Assembly (NCBI GenBank): GCA_001717545.1
Contig: CP017039.1
Coordinates: 62,001-126,000 of the forward strand
Origin: Anaerolineaceae bacterium oral taxon 439
GTDB lineage: Bacteria; Chloroflexota; Anaerolineae; Anaerolineales; Anaerolineaceae
Length of the DNA stretch: 64,000 nt
Direction: 5' to 3'
Below, one piece after another: positions 29,048-42,621 of the stretch. The notes under the pieces were generated by a model, which made no database searches, was not told the DNA's origin, and saw only the letters and a list, made by a program, of their open reading frames with translations. A program made the translations under genes and the position numbers. Position 1 is the stretch's first letter. The number at the start of each line of letters is the position of its first letter.

Positions 29048-29875
29048 TCAGCCCCGCTCAGCTTTCAGCCCCGCCTCTTTTTCATCAGATAACGGAACCA
29101 CGACCGCGTACGTCCGCTCGTTCAGCGCGATCTCGCGGACCGCGATCGGGATCGAGAAGAGCCGCGATAAATTTTCGTCGTTCAGCAGCGCGTCGCTCCG
29201 CCCGACCGTCGTCTGGCCGCGATGAATCAGGAGCGTCTGATCCGCCAGACGCAACGCATGTTCCGGATAGTGCGTATTAAACAAAATACTGATCGAGGAT
29301 TCGGACGCCAGCCGTTTCAGGATCCGCAGGATATTCTGTTGATTCTTATAATCCAGGTTCGACTCCGGTTCGTCTAAAATCATGATCGACGGCTCGGCGC
29401 AGAGCGCCCGCGCGATCAGGACCATCTGCAGCTCGCCGCCGGAAATCCGCGTGCAGAGCCGATCGCGGAGATGACCGATTTCGAGCGTCTCCATCGTCTC
29501 CCGCGCCAGCCGAACGTCTCTTTCTCCCGGCTTCGCGAAAACGCCTAAACGCGGCGCGCGTCCCAGCAGGACCATCTGCTCGACGGTATACGCGACCTGC
29601 TGGCTCCGCGCCTGCGGAACGTAGGCCATCAGCCGCCAGATCTCGCGCTCGCCCTTTCGCCGCATCGGCTCGCCGAACAGCAGCGTTTCCCCCTCGCTCC
29701 AGGGGAGCAGGCCCATCAGACAGCGTAAAAACGTCGTCTTCCCGGCTCCGTTCGGGCCAAGCACCGCGCATACCTCACCGCGGCGCAGCGATAAGTTCAC
29801 GTGATGGAACTGGTCTTCCGATCGTTTCGCCCAGCGAAAACGGGCGTCCCGGACCTCCAAAGCAATCTCGCTCAC
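29048..29875 (-). CDS. FecE/BtuD-type ABC transporter ATPase
   Basis: The protein has 275 residues from a GTG at 29873-29875, which overlaps the permease stop (GTGA) and has AAAGGAG eight bases upstream. The frame is open for 850 bp further, but that part is an antiphase shadow of the permease gene. Motifs: Walker A GPNGAGKTT, Q-loop AYVPQAR, signature ISGGELQMVLIARAL, Walker B IMILDEPESNLD. This class energises import of iron chelates, haem, cobalamin or other metal complexes. It is the last gene of the nitrogenase-like operon. Confidence 0.93.
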   Translation of the reverse strand: MSEIALEVRDARFRWAKRSEDQFHHVNLSLRRGEVCAVLGPNGAGKTTFLRCLMGLLPWSEGETLLFGEPMRRKGEREIWRLMAYVPQARSQQVAYTVEQMVLLGRAPRLGVFAKPGERDVRLARETMETLEIGHLRDRLCTRISGGELQMVLIARALCAEPSIMILDEPESNLDYKNQQNILRILKRLASESSISILFNTHYPEHALRLADQTLLIHRGQTTVGRSDALLNDENLSRLFSIPIAVREIALNERTYAVVVPLSDEKEAGLKAERG

Positions 29876-30897
29876 AGCCCTTCTCCTTTCGACGAATGGA
29901 GCAGGAAGATAAACAGCGGAGCGCCCAACGCCGCCGTCAGGATCGACAGCGGAATTTCCGCCGCGTACGCGCTGCGGGCGAAGCTGTCGATCAGGAGAAG
30001 GAAACTCCCGCCGAAGCTGATACTCGCCGGAATAACGTCGCGATGATCGCTCCCGAAGCACATCCGGCAGATATGCGGAATGACCAGCCCTACCCAGCCG
30101 ATCTGCCCCGCCATCGAGACCGCCGCCGCGACCATCATCGTCGCCGCCAGCGAAAAAACCAGCCGCATGCGCTGGACGTTGACCCCCAGCGTCTGCGCCT
30201 CGTCGTCGCTCAGCGCCATAACGTTCAGCCGCCAGCGCAGCGCGAAAATAATCGCCATGCCGGCGACGATCAGCGGCAGGCCGTAAACGAGCGTCCCATA
30301 CCGCGCCGACGCCAGGCTCCCCATCAGCCAGAACGTAATCGCGGGAAGCATGGCCTCCGTCTCGGCGACCGTCATGATCAGCGAGATTCCCGCCTGAAAA
30401 AGCGCCGCAACGACCATTCCCGACAGGACGATCATGATCGTCGTCACCCGTCCGCGGATCCGGCTCACAAAGTACGTCAGGCTGACCGCGATAAACCCGA
30501 AAGCCATGGCCGACAGCTGCACGACGATCATATTCTGCCGCATGTACAGCGCCAACGCCGCGCCGAAACCCGCCCCCGCCGCCACCGCCAGCGTATCGGG
30601 CGAGGCGAGCGGATTCGAAAAAACGCTCTGGAAACAGGCGCCGGAGACCGACAGCGCCGCCCCGCAGGCCAGCGCCAGAATAATCCGCGGCAGCCGCAGG
30701 CTGATCAGAACGCTGAACATCCGCTGGTCCCATTGCCCATCCCGAATACCGGCAATAAAAAAGTTAAAAATAGCGGCTACGCTGATCTGTAGCCGCCCCA
30801 AACCCCAACAAAAGATTGCCAGAACCAACGGCAGGAAGATCAGGAACAAATTCCGCGCCCTGCGGCTCCTGCCCTGGATCGTCGTTCCCGCCGGCAT
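29872..30897 (-). CDS. FecCD/BtuC-type ABC transporter permease
   Basis: This 341-residue protein has about nine to ten membrane helices and typical FecCD segments: SLRLPRIILALACGAALSVSGACFQ near residue 66, SPDTLAVAAGAGFGAAL, and GWVGLVIPHICRM. It forms the channel for the metal-complex importer with the adjacent ATPase and binding lipoprotein. The start ATG at 30897 is 8 bp after the binding-protein stop. Confidence 0.94.
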   Translation of the reverse strand: MPAGTTIQGRSRRARNLFLIFLPLVLAIFCWGLGRLQISVAAIFNFFIAGIRDGQWDQRMFSVLISLRLPRIILALACGAALSVSGACFQSVFSNPLASPDTLAVAAGAGFGAALALYMRQNMIVVQLSAMAFGFIAVSLTYFVSRIRGRVTTIMIVLSGMVVAALFQAGISLIMTVAETEAMLPAITFWLMGSLASARYGTLVYGLPLIVAGMAIIFALRWRLNVMALSDDEAQTLGVNVQRMRLVFSLAATMMVAAAVSMAGQIGWVGLVIPHICRMCFGSDHRDVIPASISFGGSFLLLIDSFARSAYAAEIPLSILTAALGAPLFIFLLHSSKGEGL

Positions 30898-30905
30898 TAT
30901 TGACC

Positions 30906-32012
30906 TTACATGCCGGCAGTCGGATTCAGAATTTCATGAATATCCTCGTCCGTCAGCTCATAATGAAAGAGATTCTGATAGTAATTACGAATCTCCTCTT
31001 CCATGTCGATATCCTCGAACAGGTCCGGATGCATCGTCTTCGCCATGAACAGCAGGTTCAGCGGCGCGTCGCTCGACGGCGGGAACCACGTATACGTCCC
31101 GCGCGGAATCTTATAAACGCGCCCGTTCTGAACCGCGGTAATCCCGGACCAGTCGTCCCCTTCCTTCGCCTGACTGTTCAAAATCTGGTCGACCGTGTAA
31201 GCGCTGAAGTTGTTGAGGTATAAGACCTCCGGATTCCATTCGTAAACCTGCTCCATGTTAACCGGGCCGACAAACGCGCCGACCTCGTAACCGAGATTCT
31301 TCCCGCCTGCCGTCGTAATCCAGTAGTTCGCAAAGCTCGTCCCGCCAGCGACCAGGACGTTTTCGTTGTAATTCACGAGGATCAGCGCGTTCGGCTTCTC
31401 ATCGTCTTTCAAGTCGCCCACGCGGCTCCGAACCGTCTCCAACGCCTTTTCGCCGTATTCCTTAATTCCGGGAGCCTGATCCTCCTTATCGAGAACCTCG
31501 GCCAGGAGATCGACCCAGGCGTTGAACGTATCGATCGTGCTGTAATCCTCGAAAAGCGTCGTGCTGAACCCGACCGCCGGTATCCCCGCGTTCTTCAATA
31601 CTTCGTAATTTTCTTTAACGTCGGCGTTGTAAAAATAAACCTGCGGATCCAGCTTCAGCAGCTCTTCAACGTTGATATCGTCGGTCCCGGACGTTGAGAA
31701 CGACGACGAAATATCCGCCATGCCGGGGAAAATTTTGTTCATAATCGAACGCTCGATACTGTAACGCGAATCTTCGTGGATCCCGACTAGCCCGTCGATC
31801 GACCCGGTGAACATCGGGTAAACCGCCGCCAACGGCGTCAGGCTCCCGATCACGATTCGATCGAGCTTCGCCGGAAGAACGACCGTATTGCCCGCGTGAT
31901 CAACAATCGTCCGCGTTTCGCTTTCCTGCGCATCGGCGTTCCCGGCGGAACATCCGGCCGCTAAAACGGCGATCATCATCGCCACAACCATCCATGAGAA
32001 TAATCTCTTCAT
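30906..32012 (-). CDS. FecB/BtuF-type substrate-binding lipoprotein
   Basis: The protein has 368 residues. The lipobox ends at Cys21 (AAGC). The mature part shows the Peripl_BP_2 fold: TIVDHAGNTVVLPAKLDRIVIG, VEELLKLDPQVYFY, the mid-protein helix, and WNPEVLYLNNF. It captures a chelated metal, tetrapyrrole or similar ligand outside the membrane. It lies 51 bp downstream of a nitrogenase-like gene in one operon, which suggests its ligand is a substrate or cofactor source for that reductase. The ligand itself cannot be read from sequence. Confidence 0.92.
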   Translation of the reverse strand: MKRLFSWMVVAMMIAVLAAGCSAGNADAQESETRTIVDHAGNTVVLPAKLDRIVIGSLTPLAAVYPMFTGSIDGLVGIHEDSRYSIERSIMNKIFPGMADISSSFSTSGTDDINVEELLKLDPQVYFYNADVKENYEVLKNAGIPAVGFSTTLFEDYSTIDTFNAWVDLLAEVLDKEDQAPGIKEYGEKALETVRSRVGDLKDDEKPNALILVNYNENVLVAGGTSFANYWITTAGGKNLGYEVGAFVGPVNMEQVYEWNPEVLYLNNFSAYTVDQILNSQAKEGDDWSGITAVQNGRVYKIPRGTYTWFPPSSDAPLNLLFMAKTMHPDLFEDIDMEEEIRNYYQNLFHYELTDEDIHEILNPTAGM

Positions 32013-32063
32013 AGCTTAAAAACCTCTCTTTTTCTTCCGGAACGCAATTCCGATCCGGTAAGT

Positions 32064-33290
32064 TTAATCAGATAACCCGGGAATTCGACCGGACGAAAAC
32101 ATCCGCCGAAGTTCCTCGAGGAATTGCCCTGCCTGATCGCGGACCGACCGCTCGTCCGCGCCGTAGAGATGCGAGGATAATGAAAACTGCGGCCATGCGA
32201 TAAACTCCGCGTCCGGGCTGCTGAACCGTTTCAGCAGCGGGTCCGCGATAATGAACGCCGCGTCCGACGCCGCGAAACGCGCCCGGAGAGCCTCCTCCGA
32301 TTCGACATGATCCACGCGCCCGTGCGAACTGAAGCCCAGGTCTTCCTGAAGAACGACCGTGTCCACCGTCCATCCGTCCGCGGCTTCGTTCAAGAGATCG
32401 GCGATACTCGCGGCTAAATACGGTTCGGCGACAATCAGCGCCTTCCGTCCGGTTTCCGCCGCTCCCGTTTCGCGCGCCTTCTCCGGCGCCTGGCTCTCGT
32501 CAGCTCCGCCGTCCGCCAGCAATCGCCGGATCATCCGGTCCCGGCTCGCATCCGTCAGCGGCAATCCGCGCAGCACGCGCACAGACGGATCATATCGGCG
32601 GACCAGCTCCGCCGCCCCCTCGCCGGCTTCGGAGAAAACCCAGATCCAGTCCGTCCGCCGCAGCCGCTCCAGCTCCGACAGTCCGCACCCGATCGTCACG
32701 GAACAGATCGATTCAACGCCTGCCTGATTCAGCCCGCGCCGAATCCAATCCACATACGACCGGTCCATCCCATCGATCGCGGAAAGCCCGAACAGGCTGA
32801 CCGTCGCGCCACGGTTCCCGTCCGGCTCCGTTTTCGGTCCGGTCCGCAGGAAGCGCCTGACCAGCGCCTCAAGACAGCGCGCGTACCCCTGGTTATACAG
32901 GTGCGCACCGTTCGTCGCCAGCCCGATCGTCGGGATTTTCGTCAGCGATTCAACCTCCGTCGCGATCCCCTCAAAATCCGTACCGATCACCGCAGGAACC
33001 GGACTCCCGCAGATCAGGATGACTTTCGGACGGATCGCGTCCAGGCAGTCTTCAATTCCACGGATCAGCCGGTCGTCCCGCCCCAGAACGGCGTCCAGCT
33101 CACGCAAATTGGAGCAGAAGACCGGAGCGGGACGATCGTACCAGCGCGGCTCGTCATAGCCCGTGTAATTTCCGGTACAGCCCGCCGCGTCATGAATAAT
33201 AATCAACGGATCCAGCTCATATAAACAGGAGCACGCGCCCGAATAATCCGGCGAGATCGGCGGTAAAAACCGCGTCCAGGATTTTCTCAT
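32064..33290 (-). CDS. Nitrogenase component 1-like oxidoreductase subunit (A)
   Basis: This 408-residue protein is shorter than NifD/NifK (~480-520). Cys positions match the cluster ligands of the family: Cys20 or Cys22, Cys38 in IHDAAGCTG, and Cys94 in ILICGSPVPAVIGTD. The segment FCSNLRELDAVLGRDDRL corresponds to the NifK-type STDLxExdvVfG region. I see no equivalent of the FeMo-cofactor Cys275 context of NifD. It should form a reductase with the next protein and accept electrons from the NifH-like protein. Start overlaps the previous gene by four bases. Confidence 0.85.
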   Translation of the reverse strand: MRKSWTRFLPPISPDYSGACSCLYELDPLIIIHDAAGCTGNYTGYDEPRWYDRPAPVFCSNLRELDAVLGRDDRLIRGIEDCLDAIRPKVILICGSPVPAVIGTDFEGIATEVESLTKIPTIGLATNGAHLYNQGYARCLEALVRRFLRTGPKTEPDGNRGATVSLFGLSAIDGMDRSYVDWIRRGLNQAGVESICSVTIGCGLSELERLRRTDWIWVFSEAGEGAAELVRRYDPSVRVLRGLPLTDASRDRMIRRLLADGGADESQAPEKARETGAAETGRKALIVAEPYLAASIADLLNEAADGWTVDTVVLQEDLGFSSHGRVDHVESEEALRARFAASDAAFIIADPLLKRFSSPDAEFIAWPQFSLSSHLYGADERSVRDQAGQFLEELRRMFSSGRIPGLSD

Positions 33291-34576
33291 ACGGTATACC
33301 CGCTCTCCTTAACCGCGCGTTCCAGATCGATCGTTTCTTCCGCGGCATGACGCAAGTCGCGCAGCAGCTGCAGCATGGCGTCGTAGCCATAGCCGAACTC
33401 ATCGGCGCAGTATGGAACGACATGCGCCGCGCCGGTCAGATAAGCGGCCTCAAATCCGACCGCAACGGCGTTCAGAACCGTTTCCCGTTCCTTAACGCGG
33501 GCGGGAGCCGACGGGTCGAGAATTTCGATTCCGGGATTCGCCGAGATCAATCGTTCGCGGCTCTGATCCTCGGTTTTCAGCCATTCGGAAGCGTAAACCT
33601 GACGGACCGGGAGCCCGCGCCCCGTTAGAAACAGGGCCATCGAGAATGGCCGATACGTCGCGGCATAATCGATAACGATCGAATAACCGTCGAGCGCCTC
33701 CGCAGACCGCCGCGCCTCGGCTTCAACCTCGGCGCGAAGCGGGCGGAAATCCGGCGGATCGATTTTCAGCGCCGCCGCGATCGCCGAAAAATTCGCTTCG
33801 ATTTCCGAGTCAAGATACGAATAAGGGCAGTACACAAACGGAATCCCCAACCGCGAACGCATCTCCTCCGCAGCGCGGATACCCAACGGCTGGACGACGA
33901 CGTTCAACGCCGCGCGCGCCATCGACTGGAAGCCTTCAAACGTCTCGAAATCGCTGATATGCTGAACCGTGAAACCAGCCGCGGAAAGCCATCGGCAAAT
34001 CAGGTTCGCCCTCGGGATCGCGATATTATTCGCGATAAAGTTGACCCGCCCGCGAATCGTCCCCGAGTCATCCGGAAGCGGACGGGCCGCCGGAACGCGA
34101 AGCAGCGAAAACAGGTCGCTCAGAATCGCGACCGGCGGAGGAAGCGGCGAATCGGCTCGAATCGGGTTCATATGGCTGACCGCGAAAATCAGGTCCGGAA
34201 AACGAGCGGATAACGCATCGATCATCGCGGCATGATCCGTTCCCAGCAGGTCATCCATGCAGGTAAAGAACATGCGGATAACCTTCGCCTGAACCGGCAG
34301 CTGCGGAATTGCGGCCGAGATTTCTTCAATGACCGTGGACTCGTAGGCTCCCGTCGCCAGGTTCGCATCGTTCAACGCGATAAAGCTCAGCCGGTCCTCC
34401 ACGCCTAACTCGATCGACGACAGGATAATATGACGCATGCAGGCGGGCATCCCGATAAAAAACAGGTAAGACTCGGGCAGCAGCAACGCACGCCGGACAA
34501 CGCTCCATCCGCCGCGCGCCGGCGTCATGTACGTCAGGCAAGCCGGCATCGCCGTCACAGCCAGTTCATTCCGCAT
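33287..34576 (-). CDS. Nitrogenase component 1-like oxidoreductase subunit (B)
   Basis: This 429-residue protein keeps three candidate cluster ligands: Cys13 in [14 protein letters not shown], Cys46 in [12 protein letters not shown], and Cys106 in [12 protein letters not shown], which aligns with the TCxxxxIGDD motif. The C-terminal part ([17 protein letters not shown]) resembles the Gly-Tyr-rich end of NifK-like domains. The pair could hold a 4Fe-4S or P-like cluster at the interface, as in the dark-operative protochlorophyllide reductase family. The substrate is unknown. It overlaps the NifH-like gene by 11 bp and its partner gene by 4 bp. Confidence 0.82.
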
Positions 34577-35327
34577 CTGTTGCCTGTTTCACGATTCTTT
34601 CAGCCAACGTCAGATAGGCTCCCGCGATGGGCGACGACGGAAAAGCCTCGACGACGGTCATATTCATCGCCTCCGCCTCCTGGACGGTTCCGGAGCGCTC
34701 GATACTCGCGATCACGGAAACGCCGAATTCCTCAGCTAATTCCTGAACCCGCGCTTCTTCGCCGGCGACGTTTCGCCGGTTCAGGATTATTCCGCCCAAC
34801 CGGGCGTAGGAGCGGCGTTTGAACTGCTCAACCGCGGTTCCGATATTCGCCGCGGCGTACAGCGCCATCTTTTCACCCGAGGTTACGATATAGACGTCCC
34901 TGGCGTATCCGTTTCGAATCGGCATGGCGAACCCGCCGCAGACGACATCTCCCAAAACGTCATACAAAACGATATCCGGCTTCAGCTCGTCTTTATAGTT
35001 CAATTCTTCCAATTTCTCAAACGCGCTGATAATTCCGCGCCCGGCGCATCCGATCCCCGGCGTCGGACCGCCGGCTTCTACGCAGAAAACGCCGCTCGGG
35101 CTCTCGTGAACCAGGTCCGAAAGCTGAATCCGCCGATCGGACAGCTGCATCAGGTCCAGAACAGTATCGATTTTCACCCCGCGCATCAAGCCCGAACAGG
35201 AATCCGCCTTAGGGTCGCATCCAACCTGAAGCACGCGCAGCCCCATCCGCCGCCAGGAAACCGACAGGTTCGCGCTGCAGGTCGATTTCCCGATGCCGCC
35301 TTTACCATAAATTGCAATCGATCGCAT
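34566..35327 (-). CDS. NifH-like ATP-dependent Fe protein
   Basis: The protein has 253 residues. P-loop KGGIGKST at residues 9-16, switch I region GCDPKADSC at 36-44, and the two 4Fe-4S ligands Cys94 (GIGCAGRGI) and Cys130 ([15 protein letters not shown]) are all in place. It should form a homodimer bridged by a 4Fe-4S cluster and deliver electrons to the component-1-like pair with ATP hydrolysis. It is closest in kind to BchL/CfbC/MarH-type and NifH proteins; placing it needs a tree. First gene of the six-gene operon. Confidence 0.93.
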
Positions 35328-42546: not shown

Positions 42547-42621
42547 TGGGCGCAGAGGGACTCGAACCCCCGGACCTCTTGTGTGTGATACAAGCGCTCT
42601 AACCAACTGAGCTATGCGCCC
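42547..42621 (-). tRNA. tRNA-Val (anticodon CAC)
   Basis: The cloverleaf is complete: acceptor GGGCGCA/TGCGCCC, D-arm GCTC/GAGC, anticodon stem CTTGT/ACAAG with loop ATCACAC (U33 then CAC), T-arm GGGGG/CCCTC with loop TTCGAGT, discriminator A. CCA is not encoded. Confidence 0.95.

Follow-up and report, generated by a model that had tools for sequence, protein, structure and literature searches.

A Conserved Nitrogenase-Like Operon With a FecBCD-Class Importer Hints at an Unrecognized Route to the Iron-Cyanide/Carbonyl Cofactor of Hydrogenases

The stretch of DNA analyzed here, referred to as the window, comprises 64,000 nucleotides of the genome of Anaerolineaceae bacterium oral taxon 439 (contig CP017039.1, positions 62,001 to 126,000). 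Six of its minus-strand genes, running from position 35327 down to 29048, form one operon that encodes a NifH-like iron (Fe) protein (H), two component-1-like proteins (D and K), and the substrate-binding protein (SBP), permease (PERM) and ATPase (ATP) of a FecBCD-class importer. H-D-K with its importer is a conserved, uncharacterized nitrogenase-like module. Its relatives, which occur in other anaerobes, appear to tie H-D-K to the assembly of hydrogenase cofactors, a link that seems good for the family as a whole and indirect for the copy in the window, hinting at an unrecognized route by which an iron-cyanide/carbonyl hydrogenase cofactor might be made or scavenged. The reading put forward here, tentatively, is that the operon encodes an undescribed reductase of the nitrogenase superfamily in its importer-coupled form, which would serve the H-cluster of [FeFe]-hydrogenases by processing an Fe-cyanide/carbonyl (Fe-CN/CO) building block that is imported in this organism. 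It is held no more firmly than this because a split of the family into two clades weighs on the window's own copy.

Organization and Conservation of the Operon

A single operon had been proposed in the original prediction, made from the letters of the window, and this is borne out by the way in which the genes meet, with overlaps of 11 bp between H and D, 4 bp between D and K and 4 bp between the end of PERM and the start of ATP, and with short gaps of 51 bp between K and SBP and 8 bp between SBP and PERM. An open reading frame (ORF) with an ATG start (30733-29048) was considered as the start of the ATPase gene and rejected in favor of the GTG. The NifH-like protein with both of its cysteines (C94 and C130), the two component-1-like proteins and the full ABC importer that had been predicted were all found again with domain models (Table 1); the importer falls into the FecBCD class, as its Peripla_BP_2, FecCD and ABC_tran domains all score above their cut-offs within the one operon.

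Table 1. The six genes of the operon, with positions in the window.
Gene	Product	Position	Strand	Evidence
H	NifH-like Fe protein, 253 aa (P0001)	34566..35327	-	Fer4_NifH 292 bits (Pfam)
D	Component-1-like protein, 429 aa (P0002)	33287..34576	-	Oxidored_nitro 51 bits, cut-off 28.6; conserved C46, C106
K	Component-1-like protein, 408 aa (P0003)	32064..33290	-	Oxidored_nitro 76 bits, cut-off 28.6; D15, C38, DEPRW (46-50)
SBP	FecB-type substrate-binding protein, 368 aa (P0004)	30906..32012	-	Peripla_BP_2 70.5 bits
PERM	FecCD permease, 341 aa (P0005)	29872..30897	-	FecCD 270.4 bits
ATP	ABC ATPase, 275 aa (P0006), GTG start at 29875	29048..29875	-	ABC_tran 103 bits

The arrangement H-D-K-SBP-PERM-ATP is not due to chance, and it recurs across several phyla. 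A scan of contigs for the operon found four loci and a search of plasmids one record; Petroclostridium, a Syntrophomonadaceae metagenome-assembled genome and Treponema saccharophilum have the six genes in the same order, as does Pyramidobacter with two SBP genes, and the layout in Loigolactobacillus is H-D-K, four SBP genes, D-K and two SBP genes. The original prediction had staked itself on synteny with the importer among relatives, and the order is indeed kept in distant ones. Orthologues of SBP (at least 390 bits) were found in 12 of the 16 H-D-K genomes that are not of the HypF type (defined below), in none of the 12 HypF-type genomes and in none of 52 genomes without H-D-K, the next best match in any genome scoring 231 bits. 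The four H-D-K genomes concerned that have no such orthologue are G113, the doubtful G699 and the fragmentary G943 and G976. Gene maps were made with a simple ORF caller, with longer ORFs overlying K, ATP or H at several loci, and some genomes, G976, G943, G922 and G952 among them, consist of contig fragments.

The K profile at 1e-35 matched 21 of 391 genomes from the class to which Petroclostridium belongs, 27 of 185 Synergistota and five of 201 Lactobacillaceae. Within the window's own phylum 32 of 400 genomes were matched at 1e-10, two of them at the level of orthologues (the window's genome and G113) and the others at 2.7e-23 or weaker. As no K orthologue was present in 12 relatives from the same genus, which gave two weak matches of 23-26% identity, the operon was likely gained horizontally. 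Its GC content (0.595, vs. a 1-kb mean of 0.542 and a standard deviation of 0.062 in the window) neither supports nor opposes a foreign origin, and the host genome is a single contig of 2.95 Mb that is 99.9% complete. When plasmids were searched with D, the proteins of the window (P0002) and of locus L126 matched only Treponema saccharophilum, and that of locus L133 additionally matched a NifEN gene of Pseudanabaena (5e-8).

The nearest solved sequence to SBP is 4ovk_A (1.2e-49), and the N-terminus of SBP resembles a lipoprotein signal when judged by eye. Chain A of PDB entry 4ovk, itself a solved SBP, scores 277 bits against the SBP profile, which lies between orthologues and paralogues, and has the same conserved YRW stretch as the profile. 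In two Lactobacillaceae loci (L007, 3999-13333; L160, 7187-15230) six or seven SBP genes of the same family adjoin H-D-K, as though a number of related ligands, or strong competition for a single one, were important. In G113, the other genome of the same phylum with H-D-K, a nickel/peptide-type ABC system (below cut-offs) replaces the FecBCD importer (L158, 4521-15070), with a CbiQ-type energy-coupling factor module upstream. The same genome has a match of ~110 residues to the C-terminal part of K (C7:156647-156985, within L157; 4e-25), ~19 kb from the full K, which is perhaps a decayed or truncated copy.

Association With Hydrogenase Maturation Genes

Hydrogenase maturation genes are recurrent neighbors of H-D-K in the relatives. 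Among the examples scanned, HypF (749 bits), HypD (358), HypE (414), HydF (547-566) and HydE (515-558) all exceed their NCBIfam cut-offs. A HypC-like ORF, identified from its position and MCVG start without a model, lies between HypF and HypD at all ten loci checked; the C-terminal PRIC of HypE and the GFETT of HypD, which we take to be marks of working proteins, are present in 11 of 11, and the CxH...HCxxC pattern of HydF in 11 of 13, L161 and L162 being the exceptions. Locus L126 reads HydE-H-D-K-SBP-PERM-ATP-HydF, with six overlapping joints and one of 7 bp, and its genome has no HydG above the curated cut-off. Loci L133 and L138 read H-D-K-HypF-HypC-HypD-HypE-D2-K2-HydF, followed in L138 by HydE; here the gene for the hydrogenase HydA stands 322 bp upstream of H, and in L142 and L210 it shares a stretch or contig with H-D-K. 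These counts of HypCDEF cover the fetched stretches.

A census covered 80 genomes, 56 with H-D-K and 24 without (thresholds of 1e-60 for HydE and HydF and 1e-30 for HydA, and the curated cut-off for HydG). HydA was found in 55 of the 56 genomes with H-D-K vs. 13 of the 24 without; for Synergistota the figures are 26 of 27 vs. none of eight, and those eight may belong to a single lineage with small genomes. HydE and HydF occur together in 47 of 56 vs. seven of 24 genomes. Where both are present, HydG is absent from 28 of the 47 genomes with H-D-K and from none of the seven without it (Fisher p 0.004, kinship ignored). Genome G699 is counted among the 56 though its H groups with NifH; if it is left out, HydA becomes 54 of 55, with no change for HydG.

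The 12 HypF-type genomes (11 from the main scan and G947) are those with HypF-C-D-E beside H-D-K and no SBP orthologue. All 12 have HydA, HydE and HydF, and none has HydG, an absence with p 2e-5 against the seven controls and 6e-4 against the remaining 35 genomes that combine H-D-K with HydE and HydF (HydG is missing in 16 of these; kinship again ignored). For one of the 12, G542, every match of the census lies on a single 2.82-Mb contig. Some HydA matches have weak points, with G562 scoring 205.7 bits and missing the third motif, and L178, L182, L183 and L184 missing the TSCC motif. Genome G816, from the Synergistota group, has HydF, HydG and two copies of HydE, and no HydA match at 1e-30.

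Genomes with HydE and HydF in which HydG is not recognized have been noted before. Among eight Clostridium acetogens, HydE and HydF are described in all and HydG was recognized in three, and for those without it only hypotheses are offered, atypical HydG motifs being the first of them (PMC9431212). The same source notes that HydE and HydF without HydG give ~1% activation in vitro, which is raised by free CO or cyanide (PMC9431212), and the product of HydG is given as Fe(CO)2(CN)Cys (PMC6212873). HydG is a radical S-adenosylmethionine (SAM) enzyme to which H-D-K is not homologous.

Proposed Function and the Two Clades

An economical reading of the two kinds of locus is that H-D-K receives an Fe-CN/CO unit or its precursor from the importer and from HypCDEF alike. 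H would, by hydrolysis of ATP, transfer electrons to a single [4Fe-4S] cluster bound by D and K together, and this cluster would in turn reduce a small iron complex lying between the two proteins. That complex would be the Fe-CN/CO building block or its precursor; some lineages would produce it with HypCDEF and others, including that of the window, would import it via SBP-PERM-ATP. The product of the reduction would feed the H-cluster and could substitute for HydG. An enzyme reducing an imported cofactor or chelate had been suggested in the original prediction and is still viable; the relatives' tie to hydrogenase cofactor assembly was not foreseen there.

In the tree of K, from which rows of <280 or >470 aa were dropped (including L004, L139 and L150), the copies that adjoin HypF cluster together within clade 1 (98/93). 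The window and further importer loci also belong to clade 1. Clade 2 (100/98) comprises the importer loci adjacent to HydE/HydF, the Lactobacillaceae and, from the HypF-type loci, the second copy of D-K; where a second H is present, at two loci, the tree of H concurs. Of 29 loci with a copy from clade 2, 16 have HydE or HydF in the fetched stretch (10 of the 21 that carry clade 2 alone, six of the eight that carry both; L140, L157 and L169 are excluded from the clade counts), and all eight loci with both copies carry HypF-C-D-E without SBP. The exchange of importer for HypCDEF is not clean by clade, since L006, a clade 1 importer locus, and G113 branch beside the HypF group. The tree of SBP splits into the same two clades in 60% of bootstrap trees (support 62/9, with one very long outlier; 94/91 for the clade 2 rows without it), and the pairing with the importer looks old and shared.

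Several observations weigh against the proposed role in H-cluster assembly. None of the 25 loci with clade 1 only, the window's clade, has HydE or HydF, and three of them hold HypF (22 of the 25 were placed by the tree, and L004, L139 and L150 by best BLAST match); for this copy the link to the H-cluster is one that we infer across clades. The window genome does encode HydA (TIGR02512 503.7 bits, cut-off 405.95; group A6 858.7 bits, cut-off 765; motifs intact), with the gene at G000 C1:570590-571444 (L172, 8919-10649) after ORFs of 181 and 529 aa. HydE and HydF (1e-60) and HydG (curated cut-off) were not found in this genome, which would therefore have no known acceptor for a HydG-type product. 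HydA without HydE, HydF or HydG recurs in eight genomes that have no H-D-K, five from the Clostridia set and three from the window's genus. HydG is present in 20 of the 56 H-D-K genomes, the small set of controls consists of related genomes, kinship is not taken into account in the tests and many genomes are drafts; K, finally, has a long branch in its tree and a weak structure model.

The occurrence of HydA without HydE, HydF or HydG was seen in the window genome and in three of four same-genus genomes searched (G005, G009 and G010; L174-L178). It invites the idea that the window's host imports a nearly finished [2Fe] unit, and by itself the genome proves nothing in this respect.

The split between clades could also be taken to mean that function is split, with the clade 2 and HypF-linked copies serving the H-cluster and the clade 1 importer form of the window doing something else, such as reducing a metal chelate or a cofactor that has nothing to do with hydrogenase. 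This is unlikely, in our estimation. It draws on the lack of HydE and HydF at the clade 1 loci, on the long branches of H and K from the window and on several clade 1 importer genomes that keep HydG (G022, G493, G569, G835, G923 and others), but the HypF-linked group is nested within clade 1, the tree of SBP parts along the same two clades, and HydA shares the H-D-K stretch or contig in L142 and L210.

Reduction of an Imported Iron Chelate

The main rival to a role in H-cluster assembly is an iron-chelate reductase, because a related H-D-K stands together with siderophore-type uptake genes on a plasmid of Sporomusa termitida. The importer would then take up a ferric siderophore-like chelate, and H-D-K, as a very low-potential, ATP-driven reductase, would free Fe(II) in the cytoplasm. 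In favor of such a cargo, FecBCD-class importers carry mostly iron chelates or B12. The plasmid, pSPTER (L223, 5631-18080), has genes for a TonB-dependent siderophore receptor, an AraC regulator, an SBP, two permeases, an ATPase, H, two proteins annotated as nitrogenase component 1 and an alpha/beta hydrolase-fold protein, and this operon counts against the preferred reading. Its H is 60% identical to H of the window and 68% to that of L119, and a FecBCD-class importer and H-D-K share one gene run, as they do in the window. It is possible that H-D-K of pSPTER is a nitrogenase-like siderophore reductase. The nickel/peptide-type system in place of the FecBCD importer in G113 also fits a chelate as the cargo.

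The pSPTER operon differs, however, in its two permeases, its remote SBP, its TonB receptor and its hydrolase-fold gene, and its D and K are only 22-30% identical. Among the neighbors scanned of the six-gene loci, a sample, there was no gene for a TonB receptor, siderophore synthesis or an esterase. Chelate reduction would furthermore leave unexplained why HypF-C-D-E stands in the importer's place, and why HydE and HydF are joined to the operon. A reductase of imported iron chelates is for these loci rather unlikely, and it may perhaps be the ancestral role.

Sequence and Structure of the Enzyme

H is, judged from its sequence, a complete Fe protein. Its nearest solved sequence is the nitrogenase iron protein 1cp2_A (1.7e-67), and C94 and C130, presumably the residues that hold the 4Fe-4S cluster, are cysteine in all 50 aligned rows. 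D and K are far from anything solved, with best single-sequence matches to NifE (E 0.018) for D and to 9fmg_A (E 4.8e-8) for K, and profile searches reach NifE, NifD and BchB. The three N-terminal cysteines that the original prediction gave to each component-1-like protein did not hold up among relatives, which keep two in D and one, together with Asp15, in K. In rows of 200 to 620 aa, C46 and C106 of D are cysteine in 61 of 62 (a gap in one) and C13 in just two, whilst C38 of K is cysteine in 57 of 64 and tyrosine in seven, Asp15 is kept in 62 (a gap in two), and C20 and C59 are cysteine in 33 and 17, respectively. The DEPRW motif of K is kept nearly throughout the 64 rows, and no other cysteine of D or K from the window is widely conserved.

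D C46, D C106, K C38 and K Asp15 are consequently the only strongly conserved candidates for cluster ligands, with the reservation that K C38 is replaced by tyrosine in the seven rows mentioned. The ligand set of the cluster in dark-operative protochlorophyllide oxidoreductase (DPOR) consists of three cysteines and one aspartate. Our reading is that D and K may hold a single [4Fe-4S] cluster between them, by three cysteines and one aspartate, and would have no nitrogenase-type cofactor.

AlphaFold models of both proteins have the component-1 fold, with a predicted local distance difference test score of 82.1 for D and a weak 66.6 for K. The model of K is nearest to BchB chains (2ynm_D, Z 21.7, root-mean-square deviation 6.6 over 343 residues; next family Z 18.1), and that of D is tied among NifEN, DPOR and nitrogenase chains (9onj_B, Z 24.7, deviation 4.5 over 354 residues; 9buo_B, 24.6). 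There was no CfbD row among the VIA-align matches listed, which is not evidence against kinship with CfbD.

Relationship to Known Families

The original prediction had found no clear match to any known family, and NCBIfam agrees, as no model of a characterized family was reached. For NifHDK, H scored 297.4 bits (cut-off 394.35), K 20.1 against nifK (427.3) and 37 against nifE (505), and D had no match with any NCBIfam model at E 0.001. Scores for the DPOR models were 174.8 for BchL (cut-off 345.15), 30.6 for BchB (490.35) and 23.7 for BchN (419.95), that for BchX of chlorophyllide oxidoreductase was 188.1 (331.2), and for CfbCD they were 307.3 for H against CfbC (402) and 21.1 for K against the CfbD-type TIGR03282 (268.4), D again being unmatched. 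An identity of H, D and K with NifHDK, BchLNB, BchX or CfbCD was rejected on these grounds. A PF00148 search of the window's genome returned D, K and one match below the cut-off, so that there is no NifEN pair, in line with the predicted lack of nifE and nifN nearby.

Likenesses to these systems are nevertheless apparent. With nitrogenase and NifEN the operon shares superfamily and fold, whereas it misses the curated cut-offs. DPOR (BchLNB/ChlLNB) likewise combines an Fe protein with two short component-1-like proteins, and the same set of ligands is possible in D and K, but the ligands would be split two and two, and DPOR differs from the window operon with its importer and from the relatives with their Hyp and Hyd partners. 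CfbCD, of F430 biosynthesis, supplies the top-scoring model for H, yet H-D-K has two different component-1 proteins. MarBHDK, IsrBHDK and NfaBHDK are also H-D-K systems outside nitrogenase, and import genes for the substrate may adjoin Isr, but according to PMC11423573 a radical SAM B gene belongs to all three. A Mar-like reference from Chlorohelix, its identity inferred from its neighbors, falls outside the H-D-K group in the trees of H (98/91) and K; the trees contained no true Cfb and no certified Mar or Isr sequence. With HydG, HydE, HydF and HypCDEF the likeness lies in the gene runs that relatives of the operon share with HydE, HydF and HypF-C-D-E, unlike the window genome, which lacks HydE, HydF and HydG. 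Other group IV clusters are the subject of PMC10418091 and PMC13067680. A literature search, mostly of PMC, found among the papers listed nothing linking a nitrogenase-like H-D-K to HydE, HydF, HypCDEF or a FecBCD importer, which is no proof of absence.

The likeness to BchB and CfbC brings in reduction of an imported tetrapyrrole or corrinoid (heme or B12-type). This appears very improbable and would rest on weak similarities, namely the nearness of the K model to BchB of DPOR and of H to CfbC, the resemblance (below cut-off) of PERM and ATP to BtuC and to heme/corrinoid ATPases, and a score of 51 bits, also below cut-off, with an IsdE-type heme SBP model. There was, however, no tetrapyrrole gene among the neighbors scanned, and no Rfam cis-element, including the cobalamin riboswitch, beside the operon in 12 sources at gathering scores; the Hyp and Hyd neighbors would also be left unexplained. 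The same search matched only tRNAs and one thiamine pyrophosphate element (L007, 18240-18345) well downstream of H-D-K. The sole Rfam match in the window is a tRNA gene at 42547-42621 on the minus strand. A role in anti-phage defense was considered and rejected, PADLOC giving no match for H, D or K.

Significance

Genomes with HydE and HydF and without a recognized HydG are a noted puzzle, and a reductase together with either HypCDEF or an importer offers a concrete, testable candidate for a solution. Should the operon handle siderophores, a nitrogenase-like enzyme would still have been put to a new use. If instead H-D-K serves the H-cluster, the nitrogenase superfamily would gain a new reaction, two hydrogenase-cofactor chemistries would be joined in one operon, and it would be conceivable that microbes exchange organometallic cofactors.

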